DNA from: Halobacteriales archaeon YIM A00010
GTDB taxonomy: Archaea; Halobacteriota; Halobacteria; Halobacteriales; Haloarculaceae
NCBI GenBank assembly: GCA_025041175.1
Contig: JAKCFJ010000002.1
Span: 558,001 to 622,000 of the forward strand
Reading direction: 5' to 3'
Length of the DNA stretch: 64,000 nt
In this document: piece after piece, positions 32,866 through 35,447 of the stretch
Position numbering within the stretch: the first letter of the stretch is position 1
How the letters are laid out: each line of letters starts with the position of its first letter
Translations under genes and position numbers: made by a program
Notes under the pieces: model-generated
What the model was told of the DNA's origin: nothing
The model's database searches: none
The model's input: only the letters and a program-made list of their open reading frames with translations

Positions 32866-34059
32866 TCAGAGGGCCCAGTCACTTTCATGAGGCTTTCCAT
32901 CTATTTCACCTCCAAAACTTTCGAGTCTTTCTTCGAGTACGAGATAGGCCACCCTCTCGTTCACATGCGTTTGCTTCTCGTCACTGCTCCGTTCTTCCTC
33001 GACCATCACCTCAACGCCTGTCTTCGACAGGTTCCAGCGGCGGAGATTACACGTATTATACCCGGCAAAGGACTGTATCCCCGCCAGGAAGGCGGGATTC
33101 GAATACTCTCGATCGAAGGAGAGACGATCCCACGCGTGATCCAACGTTGTGTGTCCCGCCTCGAATGCCTTCCCGTCTAGCGTGCCCGTCCCTGGTTCGA
33201 GGGCAATGTATCCAAGTGCCTCTGTGTAGTGGGTTCCGTGGGCTTCTTCCTCCTGAATTCTCACGTCGAAGCCATCCGGCGAGACATTGCTAACGCGCGT
33301 GACGATGGGGTGCCAGCCTTGTTCGGTCTCCGTCTGGCAGAGCACGATCGGCGTCGTCTCGAATGGTTGCTCGAACGAAACGCTCTGCCAGTCAGTGTCG
33401 ACAGTAGTCCGTCCGGCGGAGGCACTGCGCCCATCATCCAGTTCGTGCTTCCCAGTTTCCATGGCCAGGCTGCCGACCGTCTCATCGTAATGGACATCGT
33501 TCATGTAGAGCCACTCCTCGGTGCGGGCATCGAAGCTCTGACTGGAGACGTTCCGCAACCGCACGTGGCACGGTTGGTCGCCGTTGTAGGATGGCGGGTT
33601 GGCGATGACGACCGGGGCCTGGTAGTCCCCCGCGAGGTCGTACGTCTGCCATGGATCATCGACAGTGAGTGTTCGTACCTCGGACTGGCTGGGATTTAAC
33701 GTGTCGAGCGACTGTTGCTGTCCGTCGATGAAGACATCGATATCGCTGACCGAGCCGTCTGCGACTCTGAACGAAGTCACCTCCCCCTGGAACAGGTAGG
33801 TATCGTCCTGACTACGAACGATTCCCTCGATACGGTCGATTCCAACGCGGTCGGCCGCCTCGTTCGTCGCTGTCGAGTACACGATGTCGGTCCCCCCGAC
33901 GGTATACTCCGTTCGAGGGCCGGTTCCGGATACGCGCAGTTCGTGCACGTCGGATGGATTCAGGTCCGAAGCCGTCTGCTCGTTCCCATCGACCAGTATC
34001 TCGATATCGTCGGCATTCCCTCTCGTATCCTGCCAGCTCTCTACCAGGGGTTTCCACAA
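32866..34059 (-). CDS. Surface-type protein with lectin-like repeats, probably N-terminally truncated
   Basis: 397 aa, no catalytic motif. Two short leading repeats have the DIEILVDGNEQTASDLNPSD / DIDVFIDGQQQSLDTLNPSQ pattern, each about 90 residues apart. Then come three tandem ~80-residue beta units with a WQSVSF or WDRLSF start, a central RVSNVSPDGFDVRIQEEE type core and a closing YIALEPGTG or YLVLEERL. This resembles H-type-lectin-like modules found in secreted haloarchaeal proteins. No signal peptide or Tat motif precedes it, although such proteins are exported, so the 5' part was probably lost. It may therefore be non-functional. Confidence 0.6.
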   Translation of the reverse strand: MWKPLVESWQDTRGNADDIEILVDGNEQTASDLNPSDVHELRVSGTGPRTEYTVGGTDIVYSTATNEAADRVGIDRIEGIVRSQDDTYLFQGEVTSFRVADGSVSDIDVFIDGQQQSLDTLNPSQSEVRTLTVDDPWQTYDLAGDYQAPVVIANPPSYNGDQPCHVRLRNVSSQSFDARTEEWLYMNDVHYDETVGSLAMETGKHELDDGRSASAGRTTVDTDWQSVSFEQPFETTPIVLCQTETEQGWHPIVTRVSNVSPDGFDVRIQEEEAHGTHYTEALGYIALEPGTGTLDGKAFEAGHTTLDHAWDRLSFDREYSNPAFLAGIQSFAGYNTCNLRRWNLSKTGVEVMVEEERSSDEKQTHVNERVAYLVLEERLESFGGEIDGKPHESDWAL

Positions 34060-34106: not shown

Positions 34107-34880
34107 TCAGTCAAGATATTTACTGATGAGTAGCTCAGTCCCATGTCGAAGGCGTTCTGAAAGCGACTCTTCACTCATGTCCAATTCATCGGCGAGGTCC
34201 TGAAGTGTAATTTCCTGGGAGGAGCTGTAGTAGCCGTGTTCGTACGCAGCCACGGTTGTCTTCAGTGCTGCCAGCCGTGGCTGTGCCTCGCTCGCGGTCA
34301 GTGCTGCCGTATAGATCGGCGAGCCATTTTCGATGTGGCGACCTCCCTCGACGAGCGGGCCGACGTCCACGGGAGTGAATCCGATTTCCTCGATGAGGTC
34401 CGATACGACTTCCTTCGCTTCATCGTCATCCCCGGCGACAAACACCGCGATACGGTCGTCTGGGTCGGCGTCCAGCCGTTGTTCATCTCGGAACGTCGGC
34501 CAACCCGTCGCATTGAACGCCTTGACGACTCGCGAGTCTTCGAGATGTTCTGCGACGAGGGCCATGTACGACTCGCCGACATCCATCAATCCATCACGAC
34601 CGGGGTAGTAATTCGCCATGCTGATGACGATCTTGCCACTGAGAACGTCGGCAGGCAGGGATTCATAGGCATGGAGCGGGATTGCCTCTATGACGATTTC
34701 GCCGAACTCGGCGGTCTCAGATACCGTGCCTGCCTGAACGTTGGGTCCTAGCTCGTCGACGAGGTCGGTGAGCGTTTCCGGCCCTCGAGAATTACAGACC
34801 ATGATCTCATGCCCAACTTCAGCGAAGTGATGAGCGGCTGTGCTTCCCATATTGCCTGCGCCAATGATTCCGATTTTCAT
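34107..34880 (-). CDS. Dinucleotide-binding F420/NADP reductase-like protein fused to a Bat-type HTH
   Basis: 257 aa with two parts. Residues ~1-200 are a COG2085-type NADP/F420 oxidoreductase-like Rossmann domain with GIIGAGNMGS (4-13), NSRG (30-33), ISMANYYPGRDG (~85-96) and VVKAFNATGWP (~118-128). Residues ~203-257 form a helix-turn-helix of the bacterio-opsin-activator (HTH_10) type: AAYEHGYYSSSQEITLQDL then DELDMSEESLSERLRHG. HTH_10 normally sits C-terminal to sensory domains. A reductase-like domain in that position suggests a redox- or cofactor-responsive regulator, or an enzyme that also binds DNA. Divergent from the HxlR gene 202 nt away. Confidence 0.82.
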   Translation of the reverse strand: MKIGIIGAGNMGSTAAHHFAEVGHEIMVCNSRGPETLTDLVDELGPNVQAGTVSETAEFGEIVIEAIPLHAYESLPADVLSGKIVISMANYYPGRDGLMDVGESYMALVAEHLEDSRVVKAFNATGWPTFRDEQRLDADPDDRIAVFVAGDDDEAKEVVSDLIEEIGFTPVDVGPLVEGGRHIENGSPIYTAALTASEAQPRLAALKTTVAAYEHGYYSSSQEITLQDLADELDMSEESLSERLRHGTELLISKYLD

Positions 34881-35063
34881 CGATGGATTCCCGTCCCCAC
34901 ATCTGAGCGGATAGGTGAAAAGCTACCAAGTTAGGAATGCGGTTGCTACTACCAAGGGTGGAAGTAAGGAAACTGACTCACCGACTCGACTCAATTCCTA
35001 GCGCACGTAGTCTACTTCACTTATAATATTCTCAAATATGGATATCCGTTCCAAAATAACCAT

Positions 35064-35082
35064 TACTACGATTTCCGTAGTA
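35064..35082. promoter_or_regulatory. Operator-like palindrome at the HxlR promoter
   Basis: TACTACG-ATTTC-CGTAGTA with perfect 7-bp arms touches the HxlR start codon. An AAAATAAC TATA-like box lies ~25 nt before the ATG, so the palindrome covers the expected transcription start. That is the position for autorepression by the HxlR protein. Confidence 0.55.
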
Positions 35083-35447
35083 TGACTATGAACGAGTCCA
35101 GCGCAAATCAACAGCCAAAACTACGCGAAACGGTTGATGAGAGCACGCTATTTTCACTTCTCGGGAGAGCACATACCTTAGCAATCCTTAACGAGTTTGT
35201 TATTAGAGACAGGCAGTCATTCCGTTTTAACGAGCTTCAAGATTCGCTCGCTCTTTCCCCGAATACGTTGTCTCGACGACTCGATGAACTCGTTGAAGTC
35301 GGGTTTCTTGAGCGAACACAGCACGACGAAATCCCACCACGAGTAGAATATGAGGACACAGAAATGGTAGCCGGTCTCACACCCGTTTTTCAAGAGTTGG
35401 CAACTTGGATGGAGCGCTACGGAGCAGACCAACTTGAGTGTTCCTGA
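35082..35447 (+). CDS. HxlR-family winged-helix regulator
   Basis: A 121-aa MarR/HxlR-type DNA-binding protein. It has the usual HxlR order: LLGRAHTLAILNEFV (~28-42), recognition region FNELQDSLALSPNTLSRRLD (~51-70), and wing FLERTQHDEIPPRVEYEDTE (~77-96). HxlR proteins often repress adjacent oxidoreductase genes in response to electrophiles or redox change. Here the divergent neighbour is the reductase-HTH fusion. A palindrome at its own start suggests autoregulation. Confidence 0.88.
   Translation: MTMNESSANQQPKLRETVDESTLFSLLGRAHTLAILNEFVIRDRQSFRFNELQDSLALSPNTLSRRLDELVEVGFLERTQHDEIPPRVEYEDTEMVAGLTPVFQELATWMERYGADQLECS

Follow-up and report, generated by a model that had tools for sequence, protein, structure and literature searches.

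The window, by which is meant the whole 64,000-nucleotide stretch of haloarchaeal DNA that was analysed, carries a gene whose product joins a reductase domain to a C-terminal domain derived from HTH_10, and a divergent gene for an HxlR-family regulator, the two being separated by a spacer with short conserved sites. The features are given below by position in the window, with the basis of each in brackets.

34107..34880, minus strand: fusion gene, 257 aa, a COG2085-type NADP-binding reductase domain plus an HTH_10-derived C-terminal domain (ORF, Pfam, full-length homologues)
34119..34265, minus strand: HTH_10-derived domain, residues 206-254, acidic and without the Pro-Arg of the family (Pfam, dN/dS, charge comparison)
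34266..34880, minus strand: reductase part, residues 1-205, with GxGxxG, N-S-R and KAFN (ends where stand-alone relatives end)
34915..34934, minus strand: promoter block B, CTAACTTGGTAGCTTTTCAC (19/20 positions invariant, 13 loci)
34941..34965, minus strand: promoter block A, ACTTCCACCCTTGGTAGTAGCAACC (21/25 invariant; an imperfect ACTnCn-n6-GGTAGT inverted repeat inside)
35065..35081, no strand: 17-bp palindrome ACTACG-N5-CGTAGT directly before hxlR (15/17 invariant, 13 loci)
35082..35447, plus strand: HxlR-family regulator, 121 aa (PF01638 match)

The fusion ORF starts with ATG and has no internal stops. F420_oxidored (PF03807) matches residues 2-91 of its product (78 bits against a Pfam cut-off of 21.6, E 8.6e-22) and HTH_10 (PF04967) matches residues 208-248 (34.7 bits, cut-off 23.1), and the claim of an earlier note that both domains reside in one protein is thus borne out by a single ORF with both matches above cut-off. 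The HTH_10 match covers profile positions 8-48, the first seven being missing because the helix that ends the reductase stands in for LT-x-RQ; an AlphaFold2 model (mean pLDDT 87.9) shows residues 196-214 as a single helix that crosses from the reductase end into the HTH. Homologues in other genomes align over the whole length, to residue 256-257, at 59-75% identity, and these, together with purifying selection on the HTH part, argue that the HTH is not an artefact of chance or reading frame. Downstream of the fusion gene (window 32866-34059, minus strand) lies a gene for a product with an H-type lectin domain (PF09458).

Within the reductase part, GxGxxG and KAFN accompany an N-S-R at residues 30-32, on the predicted NADP 2'-phosphate side. 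Among solved structures SMa0349, STEAP domains and FNO come nearest, the model pLDDT in this region is mostly above 90, and the fold match and the profile score together place the domain in COG2085/F420_oxidored. NADP-dependent members have a Ser-Arg to which the Ser-Arg at residues 31-32 aligns, and NADP(H) is therefore the predicted cofactor. The earlier note had also allowed for F420 as cofactor or ligand, which is not indicated, as the NpdG F420 reductase model (TIGR01915) scores 49.1 bits, far under its cut-off of 149.8. Apart from FNO and STEAP, no KAFN-type COG2085 protein is known to have an established substrate, a point against the enzyme reading preferred below.

Distribution and origin of the fusion

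Full-length fusions occur in 13/391 sampled haloarchaeal genomes, spread over five families and often on plasmids, which answers the question of conservation in haloarchaea that the earlier note had posed. There is a full-length paralogue (63% identity) on another replicon of the window's own genome, C3, and a further full-length fusion (59% identity) in genome G110. The fusions in named records lie on plasmids of Halobacterium hubeiense, Natrinema sp. DC36, Halostagnicola larsenii and Halalkalicoccus sp. FCH27, where the public annotation is 'NAD(P)-binding domain-containing protein' and nothing more specific; a literature search on this fusion found no paper. A scan of genome contigs with a single protein returned one weak locus only. 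A viral origin was considered and rejected: no relative was present in viral contigs, and phages gave weak partial matches only.

The stand-alone reductases without an HTH, of 208-217 aa, end at the point that coincides with the HTH start in the fusions. A tree built on the reductase part places every fused row on one side of a single branch in 100% of 200 bootstrap trees, so that the fusions form one clade beside the stand-alone proteins, with the own C3 copy and the G110 copy branching near its base at modest support (87/77). The paralogous fusion on C3 (G000:C3:107800-118800) lies near genes for an HTH_10 regulator and a P-type ATPase; HVO_2928_N-type relatives of that regulator also adjoin four of the HxlR-fusion pairs described below, and one adjoins a broken reductase gene in G103.

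Selection and altered chemistry in the HTH_10-derived tail

The tail is under purifying selection, with dN/dS about 0.1. The HTH values are 0.07-0.12 in most pairs, as low as those of the reductase or below them, and 0.09-0.11 in pairs with dS of 0.2-0.6. Several of the dS values are above 1, a caveat to these figures. Ratios are higher in the closest pair, where changes are few (0.35), and in comparisons that involve L011 (the G110 copy) or L019-L024 (0.22-0.53). Every fusion scanned passes the Pfam cut-off for HTH_10, and every full-length one keeps the domain.

The chemistry of the tail, compared over 40 HTH columns with 90 HTH_10 domains of the window's genome as controls, departs strongly from that of its family, although nine fusion sequences only were compared, which counts against the reading preferred here. 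The net charge is -8 in the window and -8 to -11 in the HxlR-linked orthologues, against -5 to +3 in the controls; Arg and Lys residues number 2 in the window and 0-2 in the HxlR-linked clade, against 3-9. The near-invariant Pro-Arg found in about 88/90 controls is Ser-Gln in the window's HTH, and its recognition helix begins Glu-Glu, as in 0/90 controls. Most of the basic residues typical of the family are accordingly lost, Pro-Arg and a non-acidic recognition helix, its other traits as a DNA-binding domain, are lacking, and the HTH of the HxlR-linked clade has probably lost sequence-specific DNA binding, although charge alone does not exclude such binding in a haloarchaeon. A structure search with the HTH part alone, an uninformative query, gave no significant match. 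The window's own 6-Mb genome, G000, holds 97 HTH_10 matches, several inside or beside the window.

These data bear directly on the proposal of the earlier note that the fusion acts as a transcription factor, in which the Rossmann domain would bind NADP(H) or a redox substrate and switch DNA binding by the HTH. HTH_10 is elsewhere an output domain, the N-terminal domains of Bat-like proteins are often exchanged before it (PMC5847659), and the tail is recognisable and selected in all scanned fusions; FNO is a homodimer (PMC5614548), and an FNO-like homodimer would pair two HTHs. The early-branching copies, L002 on C3 and L011 in G110, moreover keep Pro-Arg, with net charges of -4 and 0, an ordinary or near-ordinary HTH chemistry that speaks for this proposal and counts against the reading preferred here. 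In the window's clade, however, the Arg/Lys counts, the replaced Pro-Arg and the Glu-Glu of the recognition helix make the domain an outlier among the 90, and the promoter sites would be explained by HxlR and recur where the searched genome has no fusion protein. For the window's copy the proposal is thus not the best-supported one; a sensor of this kind is considered less likely than the preferred reading and yet a serious rival. The fusions likely began as ordinary HTH_10 proteins, with the DNA contacts lost later in the clade that became paired with HxlR. The earlier note had set its proposal against the possibility that homologues lack the HTH or carry it in degraded form; this was borne out in part, in that the stand-alone relatives have no HTH and the HTH of the fusions is altered and yet selected.

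The loss of DNA-contact residues also invites the opposite notion, that the HTH was captured by a read-through fusion and has no role, and one orthologue group has a changed C-terminus with a decayed second tail copy behind the gene. A dN/dS of about 0.1 across five families, in most pairs no higher than that of the reductase, and the retention of the tail by every full-length fusion leave such a passenger very improbable. The decayed second copy, interrupted by stops, follows immediately on the fusion gene at L076 5962-6063 and also at L080, L095, L083 and L077, and the orthologues concerned end in KSFPFS.

The HxlR gene and the conserved spacer sites

The neighbouring gene product belongs to the HxlR/DUF24 family (PF01638, E 6.9e-14, 51.9 bits against a cut-off of 20.8), and the start that is conserved among relatives is probably the ATG at 35088. 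The earlier note had described a divergent HxlR regulator with its own operator, a description that holds up in the PF01638 match and the conserved operator-like palindrome. A divergent HxlR gene of at least 74% identity is present in 12/13 fusion genomes and in none of the fusion-less genomes among the 391 sampled, the next-best HxlR in any sampled genome being 64% identical. The fusion-to-hxlR gap is 201-213 bp where measured. An HTH_10 regulator, a PaaI-type thioesterase and an MFS transporter are common to four loci and other loci differ, such that the HxlR-fusion pair is the sole element that recurs at all HxlR-bearing loci, which argues that the pair is the transferred unit. The two paralogues (C3, G110) are without HxlR and without the conserved sites.

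Beyond the palindrome and blocks A and B the spacer is poorly conserved (28/99 and 6/34 invariant positions in 13 aligned spacers). In genome G382 hxlR and everything past block A have been lost, while both blocks are kept; no HxlR homologue was reported there at E 1e-20. This retention counts against HxlR as the ligand of the blocks, and on its account the fusion protein itself was first favoured as owner of the promoter block, a candidate dropped since the block precedes pirin, SDR, EF-1A and DoxX genes beside HxlR homologues. At the G382 locus (L073) a recombination break lies directly before the promoter block, upstream of the fusion gene.

A search of 292 genomes with the block-B pattern CTAACTTGGTAGNTTTT found it in 10, and the reversed control gave 0 matches; nine carriers are fusion genomes with one match each, and the tenth is G334. 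The palindrome and the roughly 50-bp block between fusion and hxlR match promoters of a candidate HxlR regulon in G334. The blocks hold inexact copies of the palindrome, such as ACTTCTAACTTGGTAGT and ACTTCTAATCCCGTAGT of G334, for which reason blocks and palindrome are most simply both taken as HxlR sites, with HxlR their putative ligand. The recurrence of the block at other genes beside HxlR homologues likewise suggests that HxlR controls expression of the fusion gene. The window's own genome holds one copy of the block motif, and the palindrome has one other perfect copy, between an MFS and an SDR gene; one-mismatch matches were fewer than in the control, and no regulon is therefore claimed for this genome. 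No operator-like sites were found before stand-alone reductases.

A trigger enzyme, which would combine reductase activity with feedback through the HTH on its own promoter or that of hxlR, would suit a divergent pair with a conserved spacer and a single chain in which enzyme motifs and HTH are both conserved. It is judged improbable, as the basic residues of the tail are lost and HxlR would account for every conserved element of the spacer.

Proposed function and comparison with known systems

What was computed directly in support of an interpretation comprises the fusion, its single clade, the HxlR linkage, the common sites, selection on the tail and the loss of its basic residues. The preferred explanation, to which about even chances are given, is an HxlR-controlled NADP(H) oxidoreductase whose altered HTH_10 tail probably lost sequence-specific DNA binding; for the window's copy a stress-induced enzyme is more likely than a sensor-regulator. 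The locus would be a mobile two-gene module, an HxlR-family regulator with a divergent NADP(H)-dependent oxidoreductase of the COG2085/STEAP-FNO kind that bears an HTH_10-derived tail. HxlR would occupy both the palindrome where its own gene starts and the repeats of the block that precedes the fusion gene. If it acts as YodB-type HxlR repressors do, it may let go of these sites in the presence of reactive compounds, quinones and other electrophiles among them, whereupon the reductase domain would spend NADPH on the compound or a derivative. The tail, descended from a DNA-binding domain, would stay folded and may serve dimerisation, stability or protein contact. A quite improbable variant is that the acidic, non-DNA-binding tail acts on regulators, for instance by mimicking DNA towards, or dimerising with, HxlR or a neighbouring HTH_10 regulator, and so links NADP(H) state to the electrophile response.

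The quinone link within the preferred explanation draws on the gene content of the regulons of two genomes in which the HxlR homologue is just 62-64% identical to that of the window, which counts against it. In G334 four block-B copies lie within 7 kb around the HxlR homologue (64% identity): one precedes genes for a pirin, an MhqO-type dioxygenase and an alpha-beta hydrolase, and others precede an SDR gene divergent from HxlR, an EF-1A paralogue and a DoxX gene. The arrangement in G423 is similar. The dioxygenase matches B. subtilis MhqO (3oaj, E 2.8e-73) and a hydroquinone dioxygenase (4huz), and candidate HxlR sites are common to MhqO/MhqD-type genes in G334 and G423, which is not so in the window's genome. 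EF-1A is no detoxification enzyme, and its presence counts against the preferred explanation; the paralogue lies at L148 7998-9263 and L149 11521-12792, both on the plus strand, in genomes with two or three EF-1A copies each. YodB is among the nearest solved relatives of the HxlR protein, whose only cysteine is residue 120 of 121. A single cysteine so near the C-terminus also counts against the preferred explanation, and as alignment to YodB reveals no N-terminal equivalent of Cys6, a thiol switch of the YodB type cannot operate here; the regulator may bind a ligand, a mode that has been discussed for MhqR.

The locus provides a well-delimited haloarchaeal example of a transcription-factor domain that became attached to a redox enzyme and was reshaped while under selection, with a near-normal older copy in the same genome as a comparison for the altered tail, and it points to an archaeal HxlR regulon, with a specific candidate operator, like the quinone-stress regulons of bacteria.

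With FNO/NpdG (1jax, 5n2i) the fusion shares the fold, GxGxxG and Ser-Arg at the predicted NADP phosphate site, whereas it falls below the NpdG cut-off, adds the HTH tail and has KAFN in place of the FNO motif. The STEAP N-terminal oxidoreductase domain and SMa0349 (4huj) are its top structural and sequence matches and have KAFN in common with it; it differs in having no transmembrane domain and in its HTH tail. It resembles Bat-type regulators (PF04967) in its C-terminal HTH_10 above cut-off, and differs in the absence of BAT, PAS, GAF and REC domains (Pfam) and in an acidic HTH without Pro-Arg. In bacteria the DUF24/HxlR repressors YodB and CatR and the MarR-type MhqR control quinone reductases and nitroreductases, as well as ring-cleavage dioxygenases and the phospholipase/carboxylesterase MhqD (PMC6798810). 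The candidate haloarchaeal HxlR regulon resembles these quinone and electrophile detoxification regulons in pairing an HxlR(DUF24)-type regulator with an MhqO-type dioxygenase, a carboxylesterase-type hydrolase and reductases near HxlR homologues; it differs in its haloarchaeal setting without an N-terminal sensing cysteine, in the inclusion of EF-1A in the wider set, and in the fusion gene that is its cargo at the window.
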